Shown here in pieces: positions 22,632 to 34,442 of a stretch of DNA of 64,000 nucleotides (its first letter is position 1; each line of letters starts with the position of its first letter). The notes beneath the pieces were generated by a model. The model was given only the letters and a program-made list of their open reading frames with translations. It had not been told where the DNA came from and ran no database searches. The position numbers and the translations under genes are program-made. The DNA lies in NCBI GenBank assembly GCA_030532035.1, contig JAUNLX010000004.1, positions 46,111 to 110,110 of the forward strand, in the 5' to 3' direction. The DNA is from Clostridia bacterium (GTDB taxonomy: Bacteria; Bacillota; Clostridia; Oscillospirales; Acutalibacteraceae).

Positions 22632-22660
22632 ATTTTATCACAACTGACTTTTCTTCACAA
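22632..22660 (-). promoter_or_regulatory. tRNA-Arg promoter
   Basis: On the minus strand TTGTGA (plus 22655-22660), 17 bases, TAAAAT (22632-22637), about 30 bases upstream of the mature 5' end. The -35 overlaps the terminator of the preceding operon. Confidence 0.7.
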
Positions 22661-22661
22661 A

Positions 22662-22688
22662 TAAAAAGACCGCTCAGGGTCTTTTTAT
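22662..22688 (-). terminator. terminator of the T-box/VOR operon
   Basis: On the minus strand AAAGACC-CTGAGC-GGTCTTT is followed by TTATTTG. The A-rich 5' side overlaps the stop codon of the last gene. Confidence 0.75.
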
Positions 22689-25219
22689 TTGTCATTATTT
22701 TGTTTAAGTCTTTCTATGGCTTCTTTTTTTAGTTGTTCTTTTAACACTTTGCCAGCTAAATTCAATGGAAATTTTGAGACAAATTCAACATATCTTGGAA
22801 CTTTGTGTCTAGCCATATTGAGTCTAACATAGTCTTTCATCTCATCTGCTGTCATCGAGTTATTTTCTTTTAGAATAACAGACGCCAAAATTTCTTCGCC
22901 ATATTTTTCATCGGGAATGCCTACGACTTGAACATCGCTTACCTTTGGATGAGTATAAATATATTCTTCAATTTCTTTAGGATATATATTTTCTCCTCCA
23001 CGAATTATCATATCTTTCAGCCTACCAGTTATCTTGAAATTTCCGTCTTCTGTTTTTAAAGCAAGATCTCCAGTATGTAGCCAACCGTCTTTATCTATGG
23101 CTTTTGATGTTGCTTTGGGCATTTTGTAATACCCTTTCATAACATTGTATCCTCGAGCAACAAATTCTCCAGTTTCGTTTAATTTACAGTCTTCTCCAGT
23201 TTCAGTATTTATAATTTTACATTCAATTTCTGGCAAAGGTCTGCCAACTGTCGATACTCTCACTTGCAGAGGATCATCTACTAAACTCATTGTACAACCA
23301 GGGGAAGCCTCGGTTTGACCGTAAACTATTGTAATTTCTCTCATATTCATTTTATCGACGACTGCTTGCATTACTGACATGGGGCAAGGACTACCAGCCA
23401 TAATACCAGTTCTCATAAATGAGAAATCTGTTTTTTCAAAATCTTCATGGTTTAGCATTGCAATGAACATTGTCGGCACTCCATGGCAAACCGTTATATG
23501 TTCGTTATTAATGCAGCTAAGAGATGATTTAGGAGAGAAATATGCAAGTGGGTAAATAGTCGCTCCATGTGTTATAGAAGCCAACATTGCAAGAACCATA
23601 CCGAAGCAATGGAACATTGGAACATGTATCAAAGTCCTATCTGCAGTAGACAAGTCCATTCTATCTCCTATACATTTCCCATTGTTTACAATATTATGAT
23701 GAGTCAACATAACGCCCTTTGGAAATCCTGTTGTTCCAGAAGTATATTGCATATTGCAGACATCATCTTTACTGACTTTTTCTGCCATCGCATAAACTTG
23801 CTGTAAACTCGTTTTATCTTTTAGTTTCAATGCCTTTTCCCAAGTCAAAGCACCTTTTTTCTTAAAGCCAACAGTTATAATATTGCGCAATAGCGGTAAT
23901 CTCTTTGCATACAGCGGTTCTCCGCTCTTCTTTCGTGCAAGTTCAGGGCAAAGTTGTTCTATAATGGCACTGTAGTCAGATAGTTTTGAACCTTCGGTTA
24001 AAATCAAAGTGTGCGTATCAGATTGTTTTAATAAATATTCTGCTTCGTGAGTTTTATATGCAGTATTCATAGAAACTAAAACTGCGCCAATTTTAGTAAC
24101 TGCCCAAAAAGCTATATACCATTCAGGAATATTCGGTGCCCAAATAGCAACATGAGAACCCGCTTTTACACCTAAGGAAACTAAGGCTCTGGCAAAATCA
24201 TCTACATCGTTGCGAAATTCACTATAAGTTCTCGTATAATCCAAAGTCGTATATTTTACAGCACATTGATCGGGAAAAGCCTCTGTCATTTTATCGAGCA
24301 AAGACGGTAGAGTTTCAGAAATCAAAATATCTTTTTTCCAGAGCATTTTTCCCGTATGAGTACGATTATAATAAAAATTTTCTTTGTTTTTGGAGGGATC
24401 TTCAAATCTCTGCATAAAACTTGCAAAGTGAGTGAGAATAATTTCTATATCTTTATATTCATCTAAGAGTTCTTTTTCACAGACAAAGGTAATAAAGCCG
24501 TTGTAGTTAATAGAAGATAGAGCAGACATAATTTCATTGACCGGCAATTCTCCCTCGCCTAAAAGAGTTGATTTTAATTTTCCTTTTTCTGTTTTGGCGT
24601 CTGCAAAATGAACATGCTTTATATAAGCACCGAGATTTTCTATAGTATGTTGTGGTTCTTTACCCATACTCAAACAAGTATTCTTTACATTCCATAAAGC
24701 GCCTATTTCAAGAGATGGATTTTCTTCAAAAAGAGAGCGCAGTAATTTTGTATCCTTAAATATTCCCTTTGTCTCAATTAAAAGTTCAACGCCTTTTTTT
24801 CTCGATTTATCTGAAATGGGTTTTAATATTTTAGCTAAATCAGACAAAAAATTTTCTCTGTTTTCAGCTTCTTTAAAAAATTGTAATCTAACATAGGGAA
24901 TATCTAATATTTCTGCAAGATATATACATTTTTCTAATTCTGAATAAGTATCTCTATAAATATCACTTTCTGTCTTTTCAAGAAACAGATAGGACATATC
25001 CGCCGTTGCATCTATACAAGGCAAAGAGAGTTTATTTTCAAATAGAAATCGTTTAGTTTTTGTACTCGTATAATCATTGAAAGCCCCTTTTTTGTCAGTA
25101 AAGAGGTTGTTTTTTACATTATGTGGCTCTATACCTTGAAACATAGTTTCTTTCGCCATATAACATAAATCATAAAAATTATATGTACTCCAACATTTAG
25201 TGGAAAATGCCAATTTCAT
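22685..25219 (-). CDS. fusion of a sugar isomerase-like TIM barrel with an AMP-forming acyl-CoA synthetase
   Basis: The 844-residue protein joins two enzymes in one frame. Residues 1 to about 275 are an AP-endonuclease-2/xylose-isomerase-like TIM barrel (MKLAFSTKCW, ELLIETKG, IKHVHFADAK, FVCEKE); the usual metal Asp is Asn in LWNVKN, so activity is uncertain. Residues about 295-844 are a complete acyl-CoA synthetase: YTSGTTGFPKG near 491, YGQTEASPG, GWLHTGDLA, GRLKDMIIRGGENIYPKEIE and the catalytic Lys in LAGKVLK. It should activate a fatty acid to acyl-CoA. It is the last gene of the VOR operon, 3 bases after the LeuA-like gene. Branched short-chain acids are a plausible substrate (inference). 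Confidence 0.9.
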   Translation of the reverse strand: MKLAFSTKCWSTYNFYDLCYMAKETMFQGIEPHNVKNNLFTDKKGAFNDYTSTKTKRFLFENKLSLPCIDATADMSYLFLEKTESDIYRDTYSELEKCIYLAEILDIPYVRLQFFKEAENRENFLSDLAKILKPISDKSRKKGVELLIETKGIFKDTKLLRSLFEENPSLEIGALWNVKNTCLSMGKEPQHTIENLGAYIKHVHFADAKTEKGKLKSTLLGEGELPVNEIMSALSSINYNGFITFVCEKELLDEYKDIEIILTHFASFMQRFEDPSKNKENFYYNRTHTGKMLWKKDILISETLPSLLDKMTEAFPDQCAVKYTTLDYTRTYSEFRNDVDDFARALVSLGVKAGSHVAIWAPNIPEWYIAFWAVTKIGAVLVSMNTAYKTHEAEYLLKQSDTHTLILTEGSKLSDYSAIIEQLCPELARKKSGEPLYAKRLPLLRNIITVGFKKKGALTWEKALKLKDKTSLQQVYAMAEKVSKDDVCNMQYTSGTTGFPKGVMLTHHNIVNNGKCIGDRMDLSTADRTLIHVPMFHCFGMVLAMLASITHGATIYPLAYFSPKSSLSCINNEHITVCHGVPTMFIAMLNHEDFEKTDFSFMRTGIMAGSPCPMSVMQAVVDKMNMREITIVYGQTEASPGCTMSLVDDPLQVRVSTVGRPLPEIECKIINTETGEDCKLNETGEFVARGYNVMKGYYKMPKATSKAIDKDGWLHTGDLALKTEDGNFKITGRLKDMIIRGGENIYPKEIEEYIYTHPKVSDVQVVGIPDEKYGEEILASVILKENNSMTADEMKDYVRLNMARHKVPRYVEFVSKFPLNLAGKVLKEQLKKEAIERLKQNNDK

Positions 25220-25222
25220 AGA

Positions 25223-26602
25223 TTAGCTCTCCTCATATACGATTTTATTTATTGCATTTAAATATGCCATTATACTCGCCTGTATTATGTCTGTAGAAAT
25301 ACCTCTACCGGAATAGAGTCTTCCGTCAGAACGCAGTTTAACCAAGGTAACTCCGAAAGCCTCTTTTCCCTTTGTAACGGATTTTATTTGAAAATCGTCG
25401 AGTTCATATTTTTTGCCAACAATTTTATCTAAAGCAACAAAAGCAGCGTCAATAGGTCCATTTCCAGTAGCAAGACCAACTAATTCTTCATTTTCTTTTT
25501 CTATATTTATCTGAGCGTTAGAGAACAGAGAACTTGCGCTCGTAACCATATAATTTTTCAATTTATATACAGTTGGCGCCTGAAGTGCAACACTTGCAAT
25601 AATGGCATCTAATTCTACACTACCTACATTTTTATTTTTTGTCAGCTCTTGAATTTCTCTATATACAGTGAGTTTATCTTCTGCAGATAAATCATATCCC
25701 AAGCTTTCAATAGCGCTATAAACAGCTTTTTCGTCGTCATTTCCATTGAGTATTATATCTGTATCATTGTCATATTTTATGGCAAAATTATTTTTTTCTT
25801 GTTTTTCAGGAGTGTCAATCCATAAAATTTGCCCAATTGTTCTATAGAGTTTTGAATAATCTATATTCGCCGAAAATCCATATTTATTTCCGAGGTCTCT
25901 TAAAAATTCACAGACTTCCAAAAGGAAAGTCATTTGACCGTTTATCTGTGTTTTGACCATTCCAAAGCCATCTTTTAGTGCTATTGCAGATGTCGCAGTT
26001 GCAGTTTTGATTTTATTAAAACCGCAGACGCAAAGTCTTTCTTTAAATTTTGGTGCCATATCTTTTACAAAATTTGAAAATTCATCGGGTAACATTGCAC
26101 AAGCAGAATCACAAATAGTAATAAAGGACACCCCATTTTCAAAGGTATCTTCTATTATTTTTTTGAGAAAATCTTTGTCTGCCCTCGTAGAATCAACAGC
26201 ACAAAATTCCGTTATATCTGTATATTTTTTTGTTTTTTCTATTTCATTTTCTATGTATTCAACGATATTATGTCGCTTTTTATGTAAAGTATATTCCATG
26301 CAAATATCTGAAACGGGAACTTCCAGTCGAATAATGAAATTCCTATTCTCGCCAAAAGCTTTTTCAAGATTTTGTAAGTTTTTTTCACTGTTGCTAAAAG
26401 GAACGGAAAGCTTAGCATGATTCAATAAGCTAAGTAAGGTCTTCACAAGCAAAACATCGACTTTTTCATCTTCAAGTTCAGGCAACTCGATAACATCTAC
26501 CCCCAAAGAGTCAAGTTGTCTTGCAATTTCTAATTTTTCTTTGAAAGTAAAATTTTTGTCTTTTCTACAAAGCGTTGAATCAATTATTGTAATTTTTCTC
26601 AC
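25223..26602 (-). CDS. LeuA-like protein (2-isopropylmalate synthase homologue) with degenerate catalytic site
   Basis: The 459-residue protein follows the 2-isopropylmalate synthase plan: HMGL-type barrel (about 1-270), linker, and C-terminal leucine-binding regulatory domain (LATGNGPIDAAFVALDKI, DGRLYSGRGISTDIIQAS). The active site is damaged. The DTTLRDGEQ-type motif reads IDSTLCRKDK, losing the catalytic Arg, and the metal motif HxHND reads C193-G-F-N-K197, so both His ligands are gone. Catalysis is unlikely, while the amino-acid-binding domain looks intact; a sensor or regulatory role is possible (inference). GTG at 26602 has GGGGAGG 10 bases upstream; the TTG at 26644 was rejected. Confidence 0.85.
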   Translation of the reverse strand: MRKITIIDSTLCRKDKNFTFKEKLEIARQLDSLGVDVIELPELEDEKVDVLLVKTLLSLLNHAKLSVPFSNSEKNLQNLEKAFGENRNFIIRLEVPVSDICMEYTLHKKRHNIVEYIENEIEKTKKYTDITEFCAVDSTRADKDFLKKIIEDTFENGVSFITICDSACAMLPDEFSNFVKDMAPKFKERLCVCGFNKIKTATATSAIALKDGFGMVKTQINGQMTFLLEVCEFLRDLGNKYGFSANIDYSKLYRTIGQILWIDTPEKQEKNNFAIKYDNDTDIILNGNDDEKAVYSAIESLGYDLSAEDKLTVYREIQELTKNKNVGSVELDAIIASVALQAPTVYKLKNYMVTSASSLFSNAQINIEKENEELVGLATGNGPIDAAFVALDKIVGKKYELDDFQIKSVTKGKEAFGVTLVKLRSDGRLYSGRGISTDIIQASIMAYLNAINKIVYEES

Positions 26603-26628
26603 TTTTTGGACGCCTCCCCTTTTGAAAA

Positions 26629-26665
26629 CAAATCTCTGAGTCAAAACTCAGGGATTTGTTTTGTT
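26629..26665 (-). terminator. hairpin ahead of the LeuA-like gene
   Basis: On the minus strand AAAACAAATCCCTGAG and CTCAGAGATTTGTTTT pair around a short loop, ending in TTTTC. It sits 25-60 bases upstream of the GTG start, so it could be a partial terminator, attenuator or mRNA-stabilising stem inside the operon. Confidence 0.6.
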
Positions 26666-26695
26666 ATAAAACAGATTAAATTTAAATTAAATATA

Positions 26696-27235
26696 TCAAG
26701 CTTCAAAATCTACTCCAATTTTTATTGCTTTTAAATTTGCATCGAACAGATTTGCTTTTCTCGCAGAAATGATTTTTTTCAAAGTTTTTTCAACCATTTC
26801 TTCGTCATATTCATTGAACACTTTTAACATTTGACCAGCTATTATCATATTTGCAAGAGTTGGAATACCATTTTCCCCTGCCAATGCTGTTGCTGGAATA
26901 TAATAAACGGTAACATCATCTCTTTGAACTTTTTTGTCTATCAACGATGAATCTGCAAAAATTATTCCATTGCTCTTTACCGCATTTTCATATTTATCGA
27001 GTGAGGGCAAATTCATAGCAACTAAAACATCGGGATTTGTTACAATCGGCGAACCAACGCTTTCATCTCCCACGATTACACTACAGTTTGCAGTACCTCC
27101 ACGCATTTCGGGTCCATAAGACGGTAACCAACTGACATTTTTATCTTCCAGCAAGCTTTTATATGCAATAAACTTACCTGTAAATAAAATTCCCTGTCCG
27201 CCAAAACCTGAAAACAATAAATTTCTGTTACTCAT
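26696..27235 (-). CDS. 2-oxoacid:ferredoxin oxidoreductase, gamma subunit
   Basis: A 179-residue gamma-type (CoA-binding) subunit: [14 protein letters not shown] at the N-terminus and [17 protein letters not shown] near residue 40 are the family signatures. With the alpha, beta and ferredoxin subunits upstream it builds a VOR/KOR-type enzyme that interconverts 2-oxoacid + CoA with acyl-CoA + CO2 using ferredoxin. It overlaps the beta gene by 8 bases. The operon context favours branched-chain 2-oxoacids over 2-oxoglutarate. Confidence 0.93.
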
Positions 27236-27989
27236 TTTCTCCCTCCAACTCTGCTGAACGGTCTTTGTAAACTCCTAAAGGATAGTAAGGTATCATTTTT
27301 TCGTCTATCCATTTTAAAGCTTCTTGTGGAGAAAGTCCCCAGTTAGTTGGACAAGATGAAATAACTTCAATCAGTGAAAATCCTTTTTTATCTAATTGAT
27401 TTTGGAAACCTTTTTTTATTGCTTTTTTAGCATTTTTTACTCCCTTTACGCTATTAACAGCAACTCTCTGAAGAAATTCTGGTCCCTCTAATTGAGAAAG
27501 CATTTCGCAAACTTTTATAGGATAACCACAGTCTTCTGATTTTCTACCGTATGGAGAAGTCTGTGTTACTTGTCCCACAAGGGAAGTAGGTGCCATCTGC
27601 CCACCTGTCATTCCATAAATAGCATTATTTATAAATATAATTGTAATATTTTCATTTCTTGCTGCTGCGTGAACGGTTTCTGCCATTCCGATTGACGCCA
27701 AATCTCCATCGCCCTGATAGGCAAAAACAATATTGTTTTCAGGGTCCGCTCTCTTAACACCAGTTGCTACTGCTGGAGCTCTGCCATGTGCAGCTTCAAT
27801 CATATCGCAATTAAAATAATTATATGCTAAAACTGCACAACCTACAGGGGCAATTCCGATTGTATTTCCCTCTATTCCCAGTTCATCTATAACTTCCGCT
27901 ATCAGTCTATGTACGATACCATGCGTACAACCCGGGCAATAATGTTGAGGAACATCTGCCAAAGACTTCGGTTTTTCAAAAACTTTCAT
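27228..27989 (-). CDS. 2-oxoacid:ferredoxin oxidoreductase, beta (TPP) subunit
   Basis: 253 residues. YCPGCTHGIVHRL starts the fold; thiamine diphosphate/Mg binding is seen in YQGDGDLASIG and INNAIYGMTGGQMAPTS. Cys residues near the N-terminus (CPGC) and in the middle probably hold a [4Fe-4S] cluster. It catalyses the TPP-dependent step of reversible oxidative decarboxylation of 2-oxoacids. AGGGGA precedes the ATG; 10 bases separate it from the alpha gene and it overlaps gamma. Confidence 0.94.
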   Translation of the reverse strand: MKVFEKPKSLADVPQHYCPGCTHGIVHRLIAEVIDELGIEGNTIGIAPVGCAVLAYNYFNCDMIEAAHGRAPAVATGVKRADPENNIVFAYQGDGDLASIGMAETVHAAARNENITIIFINNAIYGMTGGQMAPTSLVGQVTQTSPYGRKSEDCGYPIKVCEMLSQLEGPEFLQRVAVNSVKGVKNAKKAIKKGFQNQLDKKGFSLIEVISSCPTNWGLSPQEALKWIDEKMIPYYPLGVYKDRSAELEGENE

Positions 27990-27999
27990 ATATTTCCCC

Positions 28000-29052
28000 T
28001 CACTTATTCGCTTTTAATATTGCCTGCAAAACTTGTTCTGGCGTAGGAATCATTCCGCCGGTTCTATTACAGAGTTCTACAGGAACCTTGCATTCAGAAG
28101 CAAGTTTAACATCTTCAATCATCTGACCCATTGACATTTCAACAGTTATGATTTTTTTAACTTTTGTAACTGCATCTTTGAATGGTTTTTTAGGAAAAGG
28201 CCAAAGCGTTATGGGTCTTATCATACCAACTTTTACACCCATTTTTCTTGCTTCATCTATAGCATTTTTTGACACTCTTGCTGAAATTCCAAATGCTACG
28301 ATACAAATTTCTGCGTCGTTCATCAAATAATTTTCATATAGAGTTTCGTTTTCTTCTATTTTTTTATATCTCTCATATCGCTCAAAAACTTTATCTTCAA
28401 GTGTTTGAGGGTCTAAAAAGAGTGAATTTACTACATTCTTTTCTCTCTTGCCTTTAGTTCCGTCTGTAGCCCAAGGTTTTTCATAAGTTTCTTTTACATC
28501 AAAGTCCATTGATACAGGTTCCATCATTTGACCCAGGGTACCATCAGCTAAAATCATAGCAGTCATTCTGTATTTATCTGCTAAATCAAAACCCTTTACT
28601 GTCAAGTGAGCCATTTCTGAAACGGAAGCTGGTGCAAGTACAATCATACGAAAATCTCCATGCCCGCCACCTTTGGTAGCTTGAAAATAATCAGATTGAC
28701 TCGGTTGAATACCGCCTAATCCAGGTCCTCCTCTTTGAACATTTACTACTAAAGCGGGTAAATCGGCACCTGCAAGATATGAAAGACCCTCACTTTTTAA
28801 TGATATTCCAGGGCTCGAAGATGAAGTCATAACTCTTTTACCTGCAGAAGAAACTCCATAAACCATATTTATAGCGGCGATTTCACTTTCTGCCTGTAAA
28901 AATGTTCCTCCTATTTTCGGCATTCTCTTTGCCATATATGCTGCAATTTCAGTTTGCGGTGTTATAGGATAACCAAAATAATGCTTGCAACCAGCTTTCA
29001 AAGCCGCTTCCGCAATTGCCTCATTGCCTTTCATCAAAACTTTTTCAGACAT
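28000..29052 (-). CDS. vorB: 2-oxoacid:ferredoxin oxidoreductase, alpha subunit (VorB-like)
   Basis: 350 residues: pyrimidine-binding domain (MKGNEAIAEAALKAGCKHYF, GYPITPQTEIA, FLQAESEIAAINMVYG) and a C-terminal transketolase-like domain. The sequence and gene order (ferredoxin, alpha, beta, gamma) are those of 3-methyl-2-oxobutanoate (VOR-type) oxidoreductases. The ATG at 29052 is chosen: AAGGAGG is 10 bases upstream, while the TTG at 29061 is next to the ribosome site. It starts 5 bases after the ferredoxin subunit stop. Confidence 0.93.
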   Translation of the reverse strand: MSEKVLMKGNEAIAEAALKAGCKHYFGYPITPQTEIAAYMAKRMPKIGGTFLQAESEIAAINMVYGVSSAGKRVMTSSSSPGISLKSEGLSYLAGADLPALVVNVQRGGPGLGGIQPSQSDYFQATKGGGHGDFRMIVLAPASVSEMAHLTVKGFDLADKYRMTAMILADGTLGQMMEPVSMDFDVKETYEKPWATDGTKGKREKNVVNSLFLDPQTLEDKVFERYERYKKIEENETLYENYLMNDAEICIVAFGISARVSKNAIDEARKMGVKVGMIRPITLWPFPKKPFKDAVTKVKKIITVEMSMGQMIEDVKLASECKVPVELCNRTGGMIPTPEQVLQAILKANK

Positions 29053-29057
29053 TATTT

Positions 29058-29270
29058 TCAATCCTCCTTTTCAACAGTAATTACACAATCGGGACACATA
29101 GTTGCACAAAAAGCACAAGAAATACAATCTTCTTCATTGACTGCTTGCACCGGATGATGTCCCTTTTTATTGATAATTTTTTCAGACAGTTCAAGCACTT
29201 TTTTGGGGCAAACGTCTACACACAGACCACAGCCCTTGCACCTGTCTTCTCTTATCGTCAATTTTTTCAT
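29058..29270 (-). CDS. 2-oxoacid oxidoreductase delta subunit, 2[4Fe-4S] ferredoxin
   Basis: A 70-residue ferredoxin with two cluster motifs: CKGCGLCVDVCP and CISCAFCATMCP. It is the electron-transfer subunit of the VOR-type complex encoded just downstream and links the TPP site to soluble ferredoxin. It has a GC-poor leader of 18 bases after the P-loop ATPase gene. Gene order and size match PorD/VorD subunits. Confidence 0.93.
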   Translation of the reverse strand: MKKLTIREDRCKGCGLCVDVCPKKVLELSEKIINKKGHHPVQAVNEEDCISCAFCATMCPDCVITVEKED

Positions 29271-29288
29271 AGATTTTACCTTTCTAAA

Positions 29289-29939
29289 TTAAAATAATTT
29301 TTGCAACTTCAAAGGAAATATATTTTCTATCTTATCTTTTAGGCCGTTATATAAATCTTCTTTAACACAAGTCATTACAACGGGTAATTTTAGTTGTTCC
29401 GACAAGTTTTGTATTTTAGGTATGGTAGATAAAATATCTTCTTGTGTTGTCTCGGCTCCAAGATTGGAATTATTTACAATTCCAGTAAATTTAAGTCCGC
29501 AGGCATTTTCAATTTCATTTTTTATCTGTATAACATCTTTTTCAGTTGAAGTTAAGGGTCTGTAAAAATTAACTACCAAAAACATATCATAGTCATTTTC
29601 ATTTATTTGAGATGAAATTCTACCAAGAGCTAAAGCTCCTCTCTCATCTCCACCCACATCTACTATAAAGTTGCAATCTTTTTCGTCTACAATCGAATAC
29701 ATTTTTTGCGGAAGTGCCGGAATATCTAAATTGCTATTTGCAAAATCTGAAACTATTAGTTCAATTCCACTTTCAGCTAAAAGTTTTTCACTGTCTTTTG
29801 AACGAAAATATGGATTTACAATATCTAAATCTGCAAGTTTAACTTTTTTATTGTCCAAAGCAAAATTTAATGCCAAATTAACAGCAAAATTTGTCTTTCC
29901 GCTACCATAATGTCCCGAAATAAATACTATTCTCTTCAT
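29289..29939 (-). CDS. P-loop ATPase of the MinD/CooC-like class, associated with VOR genes
   Basis: 216 residues with Walker A HYGSGKTN near the N-terminus, VKLADLDIVNPYFR (switch I-type Asp), and a Walker B-like IVDVGGDERG near residue 93. This is the SIMIBI class (ParA/MinD/CooC), whose members insert metals or clusters or act as switches. There is no membrane helix. Its start overlaps the ilvE stop and the VOR subunits follow directly, so a maturation or assembly role for the oxidoreductase is a reasonable guess; no function is established here. Confidence 0.8.
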   Translation of the reverse strand: MKRIVFISGHYGSGKTNFAVNLALNFALDNKKVKLADLDIVNPYFRSKDSEKLLAESGIELIVSDFANSNLDIPALPQKMYSIVDEKDCNFIVDVGGDERGALALGRISSQINENDYDMFLVVNFYRPLTSTEKDVIQIKNEIENACGLKFTGIVNNSNLGAETTQEDILSTIPKIQNLSEQLKLPVVMTCVKEDLYNGLKDKIENIFPLKLQKLF

Positions 29940-31033
29940 TATTCATCAAAATTGAGTGGATAAGTCCAACCCATAAAATCTTCTACTGTTCCGGTTTGAA
30001 TGCCATAAAGAGTGTCATATAATTTTTGGGCAGTTTCTCCAACTTGTCCGTCTCCTACGGTGTAATCCTTACCTTTGTAATTTAACACTCCAATGGGTGA
30101 AATAACTGCAGCTGTTCCACTTGCAAAAATTTCTTTGAGTGAGCCGTTTTCGGAAGCTTCTACAATATCATCTATGGAAAGCTTTCTCTCGCTTACTTTC
30201 ATTCCCCATTTTTTAAGTAATTGAATTACGGAATCTCTTGTTATACCAGGTAAAATTGTTCCGCTATCAAGAGGCGCTGTTATAACTTCATCATTTATCT
30301 TAAAGAAAGCATTTGAAGTTCCAATTTCTTCAACATATTTGTGCTCTGCTGCGTCTAACCACAAAACATCTTTACAGTCATTCTTCATCGCATTTTTAGA
30401 AGCACGCATACCGCCGCCATAGTTTCCACCTACTTTGGCAAATCCTGTTCCACCTGGAGCCGCTCTTACATATTCATCTTCTACATAAATTCTCGTCGTG
30501 CTGAGGCCTCCGTCATTGGCAGAATAATATGAGCCTGTTGGGCTTAAGATAATCATAAATCTATAATGCTTCGCTGGTAAAACTGAGAAAGATACTTCAT
30601 CTCCAAAGATAAAAGGTCTTATGTACATTGCTGTTCCCTTGAGTTTTGGCATCCAGTCTTTGTCAACTTTAATAAGTTGTTCAACAGCAGCAACTAAAAG
30701 ATCATCAGGTAAATCAGGAATGCACATTCTTTCATTTGTTTTTTTCATTCTCTGAACATTCATTTCTGGACGGAAAATTTGAATGCTACCGTCAGGACAT
30801 CTATATGCTTTCATTCCCTCAAACATCATCTGCGCATAGTGCAAAACGCAGGAAGCAGGGTCTATGAGAAATGGTTCATTTGGAACGATTCTCCCGTCAT
30901 GCCAGCCTTGACCCTCATCATAGTCCATGACAAACATATGATCTGTAAAATATTTTGCAAAACCAAGTTGTGTTTCACTTTCTGGTCTTTTCTTAGGATT
31001 TTTTGTTCTCTCAACTGTAAAATTGTATGCCAT
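29939..31033 (-). CDS. ilvE: branched-chain amino acid aminotransferase
   Basis: The 364-residue fold-type IV PLP enzyme transfers the amino group between glutamate and Leu/Ile/Val 2-oxoacids. The PLP Lys is in GFAKVGGNYGGGMRAS; LHYAQMMFEGMKAYR, EEIGTSNAFF and TLPGITRDS-like (TILPGITRDSVIQ) segments are typical of the long IlvE form. It lies between the amidase and P-loop genes within the T-box operon and connects the 2-oxoacids of the VOR reaction to amino acids. Confidence 0.96.
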   Translation of the reverse strand: MAYNFTVERTKNPKKRPESETQLGFAKYFTDHMFVMDYDEGQGWHDGRIVPNEPFLIDPASCVLHYAQMMFEGMKAYRCPDGSIQIFRPEMNVQRMKKTNERMCIPDLPDDLLVAAVEQLIKVDKDWMPKLKGTAMYIRPFIFGDEVSFSVLPAKHYRFMIILSPTGSYYSANDGGLSTTRIYVEDEYVRAAPGGTGFAKVGGNYGGGMRASKNAMKNDCKDVLWLDAAEHKYVEEIGTSNAFFKINDEVITAPLDSGTILPGITRDSVIQLLKKWGMKVSERKLSIDDIVEASENGSLKEIFASGTAAVISPIGVLNYKGKDYTVGDGQVGETAQKLYDTLYGIQTGTVEDFMGWTYPLNFDE

Positions 31034-31054
31034 AATACTAACCTCTTTCTATTT

Positions 31055-31840
31055 TTATAAATTATAAATATCGTTTCTTCTGTCTGCAAAGACATTTATG
31101 TTTTCTCGAATTTTCTTTGTAATTTCAAAATCACAATCACAAAAAGCAATATCTTCTCTGTCATCTAATTTGTATAACTCTTCTCCCCAAGGGTCGTAAG
31201 AAACAGAATTGCCACCGTATTTTGTATTTCCCGCTACTCCACAGGAATTACAAGCTGCAACAAAAATTTGATTTTCTATAGCTCGAGCTCTAAGTAAAGT
31301 CAGATAATGTTCTATCCTCTCTTCTGGCCACTGTGAAACTACGAATAAAAGTTGTGCGCCGTCTAAAGCTAATTTTCTTGTAATTTCGGGAAATCGCAAA
31401 TCATAACAAATGATCAAACTACATTTTTTACCGTCTAAGACGAAAGTATCAAATCCTTTCCCAGCTGTAAAAAATTTATCTTCGCCCATTGGAGAAAAAA
31501 GATGACATTTGTCATATTCATAGATCACTTCGCCATTTCTATCAAAGACATATGCAGTATTAAAAACTGTTCCCTGTCTATTGTCGGCAATACTGCCGGC
31601 AACAATATTCACATTAAATTTTCGAGAAAGAGCTGAAAAAAGAAGTTTTGTTTCTCTGCCGTCGTTGTCTGCAAGATTTTTTAAATTGTCGGTAGGGAAA
31701 AATCCTACATTCCACATTTCAGGAAAAAAAACTACATCCGGATTTTCTCTCATAGCAGACGCCAACATTTGTTCAGCTAAACCATAGTTGTGTTTTGCAT
31801 CCGCAAGCTTCATATTCATTTGACAACAAGCAATTTTCAT
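31055..31840 (-). CDS. carbon-nitrogen hydrolase (nitrilase family), omega-amidase-like
   Basis: About 261 residues with the nitrilase triad: Glu in FFPEMWNVGFF, Lys in EYDKCHLFSPMGE and Cys in LIICYDLRFPE. The short form and YDKCHLF motif match the Nit2/YafV omega-amidase group, which hydrolyses 2-oxoglutaramate left by glutamine transamination. The location next to ilvE supports that role (inference). The ATG at 31840 is better placed behind AGGTG than the GTG at 31846. It follows the acyl-CoA synthetase fusion gene by 8 bases. Confidence 0.88.
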   Translation of the reverse strand: MKIACCQMNMKLADAKHNYGLAEQMLASAMRENPDVVFFPEMWNVGFFPTDNLKNLADNDGRETKLLFSALSRKFNVNIVAGSIADNRQGTVFNTAYVFDRNGEVIYEYDKCHLFSPMGEDKFFTAGKGFDTFVLDGKKCSLIICYDLRFPEITRKLALDGAQLLFVVSQWPEERIEHYLTLLRARAIENQIFVAACNSCGVAGNTKYGGNSVSYDPWGEELYKLDDREDIAFCDCDFEITKKIRENINVFADRRNDIYNL

Positions 31841-31848
31841 TTTCACAC

Positions 31849-34116
31849 CTACAATTTATGTCTATAAATTTTTCCGCTTATAGTTTTAGGTAGCTCTTTT
31901 ACAAAAACTACTTTTCGAGGATATTTATATGGAGCAGTATTCTCTTTTACATAATTTTGAATTTCCTTTACCAGTTCATCGCTACCCTGTGTTCCCTCGA
32001 CTAAAACTATGCTCGCCTTAACTATTTGTCCTCTTATTTCATCTTTTTCAGCTGAAACACCACATTCTAAAACATAAGGTAGTTCCATTATTACGCTTTC
32101 TATTTCAAATGGACCAATTCTATAACCAGAAGATTTGATAACATCATCAACTCGTCCAACATACCAGAAAAATCCGTCTTCATCTCTCCATGCTGTGTCT
32201 CCTGTATGGTAAGCACCGTCGTGCCAAGACGCTTTGGTCTGTTCTTCATTGTTATAGTATCCCATAAATATTCCACAGGGGATATGGTCCTTTGTCCGTA
32301 TTACTATTTCGCCGATTTCTCCGTCAGGTAAAACATTTCCGTCTTCATCTACTATATCGACATCATATAAAGGACTTGCCATTCCCATAGACCCAAATTT
32401 GTGTTTACCGCCCATTAAATTGGCTATTGCAAGAGTTATCTCTGTCTGACCAAAGCCCTCCATAATTTCTAATCCTGTAATTTGTTTGAATTGTTTATAT
32501 ACTTCAGGATTAAGTGCTTCTCCAGCAGTTGTCATATGCTTTATACTCGAAAAATCATATTTCGATAAATCTTGCTTTATCATCATTCTCAAAATGGTAG
32601 GTGGTGCGCAAAATGAAGTTATATTATATTTTTTAAATAGTGGCATTATGTCTGACGCATCAAATCTATCAAAATCATAGACAAAGACAGCTCCTTCACA
32701 GAGCCATTGGCCGTAGAGCTTGCCCCATAAAGCTTTTGCCCAACCAGTTTCGGCAATAGTAAAATGCATGCTGTTGTGTTCTACTCCATGCCAGTATTTT
32801 GCCGTTATGTAGTGGCCCAAAGCATATTTATAGTTATGCATGGCGATTTTAGGATAACCTGTTGTACCAGAGGTAAAGAAGAGCACCATAGGGTCGCTTC
32901 CACAGGGAGAATCATTTCTTCTCCTGAAATGAGTGCTGAAAAGTTGGTATTCTTCATCAAAATCGTGCCAGCCCTCTCTTTTTCCACCAACTAAAATTTT
33001 TGTTCTAAGTTTTCCAACATTTTCTTCTGCCTGCTCTACTCGACTTGCGCAGTCTTCATCTGCAGTACAAACTATGGCGTCTACGCCCGCAGATTCAAAT
33101 CTATATTCATAGTCGTGTCGTTGAAGCTGATTAGTAGCTGGTATAGCTATTGCGCCAATTTTATGCAAAGCTAAAATCGAATACCAGAATTGATAATGTC
33201 TTTTCAGTACGAGCATTACCTTGTCGCCTCTTTTTATTCCAAGAGATTTAAAGTAGTTTGCAACTTGAGCGGAACCCTTTCTCATATCATCATAGGTAAA
33301 TCTTCTTTCAACTTTATCTTTAGAAAGATGAATCATAGCTAATTTGGTAGGGTCTTTTCTGGCAACTTTATCGACAACATCAAAGGCAAAATTAAAAGTT
33401 TCTTCGTTTTTGAATTTTATATCAAGCAAAGCTCCGTCTTTGTCCTCATGCAGTTCAATAAAGTTTGCGCTCACACCATGTTTAGAAGCTTTTACAGGAG
33501 CAATAACAGTTTCTCGAGTCTTTTCTTCACTGGATTCTTCATCCGGCAAAACTACCGCTAAAAACAGACAATCTTCTCCATTTACAGCAATCATTCCATG
33601 GGGTGTAGAGCTGTTGTAATAAATGCTGTCTCCCTCATTTAAATATTCTACATGATCGCCAATTTGAACTTTCAAACAGCCTTTCATAACGAAATCAAAT
33701 TCTTGCCCAGAATGTGTAGTCAAATGAATAGGTCTATTTTGTAATTCTTGACTGAATTCATATTTTACATAATATGGTTCGGCAATTTTTTGTCGAAATA
33801 AAGGAGCAAGATTTTTAATATCTATTCCCTGCTCTTTGGCAGTTTCCTGACCCTGTCCCTTTCTTGTAATATTGTAAAACGAAAGATGAGCACTGACGCC
33901 CTCTAAAATATCTGTAACGCCTATATCAAAAATTGATGAGCATTTGTGAATAAAAGTGAAGGGAAAATCTTGAGTCCCGCTTTCATAGTTTTGATATTCC
34001 TCTAAGCTGACTCCAGTTTTTTCCGCCATTTCTGCCTGCGTAAAACCAGAAATTTCACGCATTTCCTTGATTCTCAAAGCGATTTCTAAAAGCTTTTCAC
34101 TTGCAACTGTTGTCAC
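31849..34116 (-). CDS. XRE-HTH / cupin / acyl-CoA synthetase fusion protein
   Basis: The 755-residue protein has three modules: an XRE helix-turn-helix (about 12-66: ISGFTQAEMAEKTGVSLEEY), a cupin (about 130-195: TTHSGQEFDFVMKGCLKVQIG, HGMIAVNGED) and a complete AMP-forming synthetase (about 230-755: FTSGTTGYPK near 415, GFGQTEIT, YHTGDTAWRDEDG, KSSGYRIGPFEIE, Lys in TISGKIYRHKL). HTH plus cupin is the layout of small-molecule-responsive regulators; here it is fused to an enzyme activating a carboxylic acid to acyl-CoA. It may sense its substrate or product. It starts at GTG, 7 bases after AAGGAGGAG, as the first gene behind the Ile T-box. Confidence 0.93.
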   Translation of the reverse strand: MTTVASEKLLEIALRIKEMREISGFTQAEMAEKTGVSLEEYQNYESGTQDFPFTFIHKCSSIFDIGVTDILEGVSAHLSFYNITRKGQGQETAKEQGIDIKNLAPLFRQKIAEPYYVKYEFSQELQNRPIHLTTHSGQEFDFVMKGCLKVQIGDHVEYLNEGDSIYYNSSTPHGMIAVNGEDCLFLAVVLPDEESSEEKTRETVIAPVKASKHGVSANFIELHEDKDGALLDIKFKNEETFNFAFDVVDKVARKDPTKLAMIHLSKDKVERRFTYDDMRKGSAQVANYFKSLGIKRGDKVMLVLKRHYQFWYSILALHKIGAIAIPATNQLQRHDYEYRFESAGVDAIVCTADEDCASRVEQAEENVGKLRTKILVGGKREGWHDFDEEYQLFSTHFRRRNDSPCGSDPMVLFFTSGTTGYPKIAMHNYKYALGHYITAKYWHGVEHNSMHFTIAETGWAKALWGKLYGQWLCEGAVFVYDFDRFDASDIMPLFKKYNITSFCAPPTILRMMIKQDLSKYDFSSIKHMTTAGEALNPEVYKQFKQITGLEIMEGFGQTEITLAIANLMGGKHKFGSMGMASPLYDVDIVDEDGNVLPDGEIGEIVIRTKDHIPCGIFMGYYNNEEQTKASWHDGAYHTGDTAWRDEDGFFWYVGRVDDVIKSSGYRIGPFEIESVIMELPYVLECGVSAEKDEIRGQIVKASIVLVEGTQGSDELVKEIQNYVKENTAPYKYPRKVVFVKELPKTISGKIYRHKL

Positions 34117-34131
34117 GCAATTCTCCTCCTT

Positions 34132-34407
34132 AAAAAAAAACGCACCCGTCTCAATGAAACATTGAGACGGGTGTTAAACATCCGCGGTACCACTCAAATT
34201 GCGATAATTTTATCGCCACTCTAAGAGCCCGACAGCTCCTTTGCACTAACGTAGCAATTCACGAAAGACCCTACTCGATATAAAACTTTCAAATCTCCAG
34301 CTCAGAAGTGATAAGCAATTGGCGGTTTTTATTATCGGTTTTCACCAACCACCGACTCTCTAAAATAAAAATTCGCCTGCCGTCTTCATCACAGCTTTTG
34401 TTGTGTT
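34132..34407 (-). promoter_or_regulatory. T-box riboswitch, specifier ATC (isoleucine)
   Basis: The minus strand carries a full T-box leader. Stem I shows the AGAGAG and GGTTGGTGAAAACC apical elements and the K-turn pair TGATGAAG / CTTCTGAG. In the specifier loop TTATCA lies just before CTTC; the triplet followed by a purine is ATC (plus 34310-34312), an Ile codon. The T-box GAGTGGTACCGCGG is at plus 34182-34195. A 13-bp terminator stem (34143-34173) ends in nine T. TGGT in the T-box fits a discriminator A, as in tRNA-Ile. Uncharged tRNA-Ile should permit read-through into the acyl-CoA synthetase/VOR operon. Confidence 0.92.
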
Positions 34408-34413
34408 GCGAGA

Positions 34414-34442
34414 ATTCTATTACTACTTTTTTATTTTGTCAA
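34414..34442 (-). promoter_or_regulatory. promoter of the T-box/VOR operon
   Basis: On the minus strand TTGACA (plus 34437-34442), 17-base spacer, TAGAAT (34414-34419). Transcription should start near 34407, just before Stem I of the T-box. Confidence 0.8.

Follow-up and report, generated by a model that had tools for sequence, protein, structure and literature searches.

A T-box-led operon of a Clostridia bacterium as a probable route from short branched acids to branched-chain amino acids

Introduction

A 64,000-nucleotide stretch of DNA from a Clostridia bacterium (contig JAUNLX010000004.1, positions 46,111 to 110,110; the whole stretch is called the window hereafter and its own numbering is used) contains an operon in which an isoleucine T-box leader precedes ten genes, among them two acyl-CoA synthetase fusions, a VOR-type oxidoreductase, a branched-chain aminotransferase (IlvE) and a protein resembling 2-isopropylmalate synthase (LeuA), which we call LeuX. 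A T-box responds to a shortage of its amino acid by raising expression, and the question raised by this locus is whether enzymes of this kind, placed under such a leader, would make branched-chain amino acids or degrade them. Our results make it very probable that the operon is a supply route for these amino acids working by reductive carboxylation of short branched acids, as an initial annotation made from the sequence alone had proposed.

Isovalerate, 2-methylbutyrate and isobutyrate are said to have been converted into leucine, isoleucine and valine by carboxylation in rumen microbes in the work of Allison and co-workers (1962-1971); the acids, products and chemistry proposed here are the same, and what is added here is a proposed gene cluster in which the T-boxes match the products and LeuA is dead. 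Passages of PMC7356843 describe branched-acid carboxylation chemistry in rumen microbes and passages of PMC10658910 describe it for methanogens. For the rumen methanogen M. ruminantium, the relevant part of PMC2812497 states that isoleucine is 'probably' formed from 2-methylbutyrate; acid activation followed by reductive carboxylation is common to that route and ours, which differ in that M. ruminantium is an archaeon and that part of the paper mentions no T-box. Our literature search (most subscription papers and all preprints were outside its scope) found this biochemistry but neither a gene cluster nor T-box regulation linked to the carboxylation route, nor any cluster of T-box, VOR and synthetase, nor a synthetase partnered by a dead LeuA. 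The initial annotation had remarked that a tRNA-regulated operon with these fusions was unfamiliar.

Results

The leader and the genes of the operon

The Rfam covariance model RF00230 matched the leader (34401-34160, minus strand) with 110 bits, above its gathering score of 93, and the Rfam alignment displayed an antiterminator carrying GUGGUACCGCG, which completes a terminator/antiterminator pair. The specifier was taken from this alignment and was also located by position, as the codon that precedes one base, the 4-bp lower stem, N and GAG: the specifier loop reads, in order, AUC, A, the stem strand CUUC paired with GAAG, U and GAG, giving an isoleucine codon. The initial annotation had called an isoleucine T-box and had made its reading depend on a branched-chain codon being present. 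According to PMC2494555, specifiers lie 1-5 bases ahead of GAG and can be used for function prediction. The leader folded better than 200/200 shuffled sequences (z -3.57), with a minimum-energy fold different from the T-box fold. Promoter-like sites in the region numbered 54 against a shuffled mean of 46.3 and terminator-like sites 11 against 7.4; because these totals are near chance, the support for the promoter and the leader terminator lies in their position and match quality only.

The ten genes downstream of the leader lie on the same strand, separated by no more than 51 bases or overlapping slightly. Their order is HTH-cupin-acyl-CoA synthetase (ACS1; HTH, helix-turn-helix), nitrilase-like, IlvE, P-loop ATPase, ferredoxin, VorB, VorA, VorC, LeuX and TIM barrel-acyl-CoA synthetase (ACS2), as listed in Table 1. 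Most of the gene assignments made beforehand were recovered by profile searches: Pfam recognised both synthetase fusions and the ATPase, IlvE exceeded a second equivalog cut-off (NF009897, 460 bits over 307) besides TIGR01123, and the four-subunit VOR was complete, with VorB above its cut-off and the thiamine pyrophosphate (TPP)-binding, gamma and ferredoxin subunits identified by Pfam, their NCBIfam matches being below cut-off. Two assignments stood in part. The 'amidase' exists as a nitrilase-like gene, but it had a counterpart in 0/91 related loci, many of them short contigs, and is therefore probably not a core part of the operon; the LeuA-like protein belongs to its family by Pfam and carries the PF08502 domain, but its catalytic site is lost.

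Both synthetases retain TSGTTG(Y/F)PK, GRVDD/GRLKD and a C-terminal GK, and a search with the AlphaFold2 (AF2) model of ACS2 gave only adenylating enzymes among the best 50 matches listed. ACS1 is a predicted 2-methylbutyryl-CoA synthetase and ACS2 a predicted isovaleryl-CoA synthetase. In relatives the P-loop ATPase is found between ACS1 and ferredoxin/VorB, with 50-61% identity in the first loci compared.

T-box specifiers in related loci

We examined 92 loci, the window and 91 related ones, 80 of which came from a scan of named genomes that found at least 558 stretches encoding a relative. These 80 were titled as metagenome-assembled genomes (MAG) or uncultured bacteria (Clostridia, Oscillospiraceae, Ruminococcus etc.), a ruminant host appearing in 44 of the titles. 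Most loci were truncated, either at a contig end or by the length of the stretch fetched, and some T-boxes also ran off a contig. The locus counts overstate the independent events, since L032/L100 and L114/L117 are near-copies (>97% in LeuX) and others are kin.

A T-box, a VOR and an acyl-CoA synthetase occurred together in related loci, a combination that the initial annotation had suggested looking for. The usual full layout consists of three units: ACS1 behind an Ile T-box, ACS1-ATPase-ferredoxin-VorBAC-IlvE behind a Val T-box, and LeuX-ACS2 behind a Leu T-box, ACS2 following LeuX directly in 86/92 loci. In the window, a single Ile T-box heads an Ile-type ACS1 together with the VOR core and the LeuX-ACS2 pair, and there is no Val-type synthetase; two or three units that usually have T-boxes of their own are merged here into one operon. 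Another merged form, with Leu instead of Ile, was seen at L087:5541 and L090:5521, where a CUC T-box stands ahead of ATPase-VOR-IlvE-LeuX-ACS2.

Of the 151 T-box core matches, 125 had a cluster gene no more than 700 bases downstream and entered the census; the remaining 26 were excluded. Under a strict rule, by which the codon had to be followed by one base, a 4-bp stem, N and GAG, 75 of the 80 T-boxes ahead of LeuX specified Leu (70 CUC and 5 CUG) and 5 gave no call, while the 43 ahead of ACS1 comprised 14 for Ile (AUC), 21 for Val (18 GUA and 3 GUC) and 8 without a call; both T-boxes ahead of ATPase-VOR-IlvE-LeuX read CUC (2/2). No other amino acid than Leu, Ile or Val was called among the 125 T-boxes under this rule. 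Read by eye or by a looser rule, the 8 uncalled ACS1 T-boxes gave 4 Val (L030, L082, L085, L092) and 2 Ile (L077, L099), L057 being cut off and L118 having no clear reading; for the LeuX T-box of L053 a second codon, ranked lower, was possible. The stem beside the codon varied with compensation (GGAA/TTCC, GATA/TATC, GCGG/CCGC, GGAG/CTCC, GGTG/CACC and others), and the codons themselves were swapped for synonymous ones (CUC/CUG, GUA/GUC). Under the strict rule, all three amino acids were called in 4/92 loci (L031, L033, L064, L101) and two of them in 21/92.

Three related genomes, with 24 T-boxes in total, were also scanned. As a calibration, the T-boxes ahead of asnS, asnB, pheS, valS and TrpB-like genes were read by eye in knowledge of the gene, and 9/9 carried the cognate codon; AUC, GUA and CUC T-boxes preceded ACS1, a second ACS1 and LeuX, identified by tblastn, in 3/3 genomes.

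On a synthetase tree of 53 sequences (51 ACS1 and 2 ACS2, some labelled by eye), the Ile and Val labels were clustered (0/500 shuffles as low for either), and the ACS1 of the window, itself on a long end branch, adjoined an Ile-type row with support 94/79. The T-box codons of these loci may decode substrates within a family of acyl-CoA synthetases. Tandem ACS1 copies with different T-boxes (L113:14943-19291, L118:14995-17639) grouped together on the tree, which resembles the outcome of separate duplication or of gene conversion.

Conventional ilv genes and the distribution of LeuX

IlvB, IlvC and IlvD gave no match in the assembly to which the window belongs (1.13 Mb, 20 contigs, 96.3% complete), each search being positive in 14/14 control genomes. 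The same assembly had no LeuA-like match besides LeuX, and the sole LeuC match was below cut-off, in a 659-codon frame taken for an aconitase.

Full-length LeuX (at least 263 bits) was found in 12/79 related genomes, this one included. IlvC was above cut-off in 1/12 LeuX genomes and in 40/67 others (Fisher p 0.001), and IlvD in 1/12 and 39/67, respectively, with below-cut-off IlvD matches in two LeuX genomes (G004 and G010). An even sample of the order gave LeuX profile matches in 36/197 genomes, or 35 after G120 was removed, its apparent LeuX being a true LeuA by RDGEQ, HCHND and GERAGN; the 35 include a partial match counted without motif check (G171). IlvC was present in 113 of the 197, namely 5/35 with LeuX and 108/162 without (Fisher p 2e-8, in a test that ignores kinship). 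LeuX and IlvC thus tend toward mutual exclusion in the order. A phylum sample gave matches in 12/398 genomes, of which four score like LeuX: this genome, one of its family, and two from outside the class (G292 and G629), both with a CUC T-box and ACS2. The other eight, in frames of 511-570 codons, scored 227-298 bits; two of them were checked and proved to be true LeuA.

Direction of the pathway

IlvE and VOR are, from what is known of their families, the usual and reversible enzymes of branched-chain amino acid oxidation to acyl-CoAs, and with the synthetases reversed such an operon would yield ATP and branched acids, as in amino-acid fermentation. We consider this catabolic explanation quite improbable, because three product-matched T-boxes would turn degradation on during amino acid shortage, the assembly yielded no ilv genes, and AMP-forming synthetases such as these usually run in the direction of acyl-CoA. 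Another explanation is that the synthetases mainly provide branched acyl-CoA primers for iso/anteiso membrane lipids, the amino-acid link being secondary. Branched acyl-CoAs serve as fatty-acid primers, and among NCBIfam models ACS1 comes nearest to MbcS, an acyl-CoA synthetase; the T-boxes of three codons, the presence of VOR and IlvE in the same units and the inverse distribution with IlvC would be left unexplained, and we regard this role as highly unlikely. The product-specific T-boxes, the VOR and IlvE alongside and the absence of IlvC from most of these genomes argue instead that Ile is made from 2-methylbutyrate, Val from isobutyrate and Leu from isovalerate, in agreement with the biosynthetic and reductive direction inferred initially.

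Several observations weigh against this biosynthetic route. VOR is reversible, so the sequence by itself does not fix the direction, and the absence of genes from an assembly of 20 contigs, 96% complete, is not final. The MbcS model (NF047394) gave ACS1 438.8 bits against an equivalog cut-off of 850. Only one ACS1 and no Val-type synthetase were found in the genome, its two further ACS1 matches being ACS2 and a distantly related adenylating enzyme (29% identity). The Ile and Val labels of ACS1 did not form single clades, so that the substrate is not a fixed trait of a subfamily. LeuX lacked a T-box of its own in 12/92 loci, the window included. LeuX and IlvC occurred together in five genomes of the order sample (G061, G101, G125, G220 and G233; 5/35), and an IlvC-bearing genome had LeuX and ACS2 at L140:9981-13814, in a stretch of 18 kb that gave no match to the T-box core.

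LeuX as a probable leucine sensor

The catalytic motifs of 2-isopropylmalate synthase (RDG, HxH and GxGERxGN) are broken or deleted in LeuX, which shares with LeuA the barrel fold and the LeuA_dimer domain. Among 88 aligned LeuX members, R13 and D14 of the RDG motif were both kept in none (0/88), H202 and H204 of the HxH motif were kept in 0/88 and 3/88, and the GERA loop (GxGERxGN) and the HQDG linker were both deleted in 88/88. A working citramalate or isopropylmalate synthase was rejected on these grounds. The regulatory domain, which in the window scored 113.6 bits with PF08502 (cut-off 24.9), was the best-conserved part of the protein (identity 0.705, against 0.461 for the barrel). Because the catalytic motifs are broken or deleted in every member while the regulatory domain is the best-conserved part, LeuX is probably a leucine sensor.

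The barrel has invariant residues as well (e.g. D134, R137, D162), and the TIM domain of ACS2 retains several metal-site-like residues (E149 in 45/49, H204 in 42/49 and D207 in 49/49), for which reason the idea that this domain is a clear pseudoenzyme was unsupported. LeuX and the TIM domain might accordingly form an enzyme of new activity in the Leu branch; with RDG broken, H202 lost and the loop and linker deleted throughout, and with the regulatory domain better conserved than the barrel, we find this doubtful, without calling it negligible. LeuX as a leucine sensor would be a case of a catalytically dead biosynthetic enzyme seemingly kept for its allosteric domain after pathway loss.

Proposed pathway

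For the substrates, the direction, the function of LeuX and the response to tRNA we infer the following scheme. The two synthetase fusions would turn short branched acids into acyl-CoAs, the VOR-type oxidoreductase with reduced ferredoxin would carboxylate these to 2-oxoacids, and IlvE would aminate the latter. Judging from the T-box codons, the Ile-type ACS1 would activate 2-methylbutyrate for Ile, a Val-type paralogue, which was not found in the genome of the window, would activate isobutyrate for Val, and LeuX with ACS2 would serve isovalerate for Leu; in this genome ACS1 may take isobutyrate as well. LeuX would no longer condense substrates, and leucine bound by its kept LeuA regulatory domain would adjust its partner ACS2. 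Uncharged tRNA-Ile would stabilise the antiterminator and turn on the whole merged operon, and relatives would switch the Ile, Val and Leu units separately.

A wider proposal, to which we attach as much belief as disbelief, is that the classic pathway has been replaced by three acid-carboxylation branches sharing one VOR and one aminotransferase, that each activating enzyme is controlled by the tRNA for the amino acid it leads to, the codon naming the substrate, that a retired isopropylmalate synthase is the leucine sensor of the isovalerate branch, and that the logic extends to phenylacetate. Since the 1960s rumen bacteria have been known to form amino acids from branched volatile fatty acids, and the operon family may provide the genetic explanation of this nutritional trait. 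Because a definite substrate can be predicted for each synthetase from the T-box codons, the pathway is open to testing gene by gene and to tracing in metagenomes.

Leader type, specifier logic and terminator are shared with the T-box amino acid biosynthesis operons of Firmicutes, as far as these are treated in the relevant parts of PMC2494555 and PMC3766115; the T-box here differs in controlling acid-activating synthetases and a VOR. The terms 'oxidoreductase' and 'CoA ligase' are absent from the main texts of both papers. From MbcS, its best NCBIfam match, ACS1 differs in its score and in carrying HTH and cupin domains.

Table 1. Features of the operon in the window and T-box units of three related genomes
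Feature	Position	Strand	Evidence
Sigma-70-like promoter, TTGACA-17-TAGAAT	34414..34442	-	Consensus match at 11/12 positions
T-box leader, specifier AUC (Ile)	34160..34401	-	RF00230, 110 bits; codon by position
Intrinsic leader terminator, competing with antiterminator	34143..34173	-	14-pair stem and T run
ACS1: HTH, cupin and AMP-forming acyl-CoA synthetase, Ile type	31849..34116	-	Pfam; best NCBIfam match MbcS; tree position
Nitrilase-like C-N hydrolase	31055..31846	-	PF00795
IlvE-type branched-chain aminotransferase	29939..31033	-	TIGR01123, 377 bits (cut-off 250)
P-loop ATPase	29289..29939	-	PF01656; gene order in relatives
VorD-like 2x[4Fe-4S] ferredoxin subunit	29058..29270	-	Pfam Fer4
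VorB	28000..29061	-	NF005507, 545 bits (cut-off 399)
VorA, TPP-binding subunit	27228..27989	-	PF02775; best NCBIfam match below cut-off
VorC, gamma subunit	26696..27235	-	PF01558; NCBIfam matches below cut-off
LeuX: 2-isopropylmalate synthase-like, catalytically dead, LeuA_dimer kept	25223..26644	-	Pfam; motif alignment
ACS2: TIM barrel and AMP-forming acyl-CoA synthetase	22685..25219	-	Pfam; follows LeuX in relatives; AF2 model
Terminator-like palindrome, operon end	22657..22692	listed on +	Terminator-like site scan
Ile/Val/Leu T-box units, three genomes	L165/L159/L152; L155/L158/L153; L157/L162/L145		L162 codon by eye

Neighbouring genes and other T-boxes

An NADP-specific glutamate dehydrogenase gene (NF006929; 34529-35869, same strand) lies directly upstream of the T-box as a separate unit, and its product could provide glutamate for IlvE. 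At L038:10846-12492, a gene resembling phenylacetate-CoA ligase (523 bits with TIGR02155, below the cut-off of 646) follows a UUC (Phe) T-box, 1.3 kb from the LeuX T-box; this one case suggests that the same product-tRNA logic may apply to Phe made from phenylacetate. The genome of the window has two other T-boxes, a UUC one ahead of a gene resembling pheS by eye and a UGG one ahead of a TrpB-like gene. The latter Trp T-box and its gene (NF009057) are on contig C17 (L004:67-1734), and the same arrangement was seen in L040, L151 and L163.

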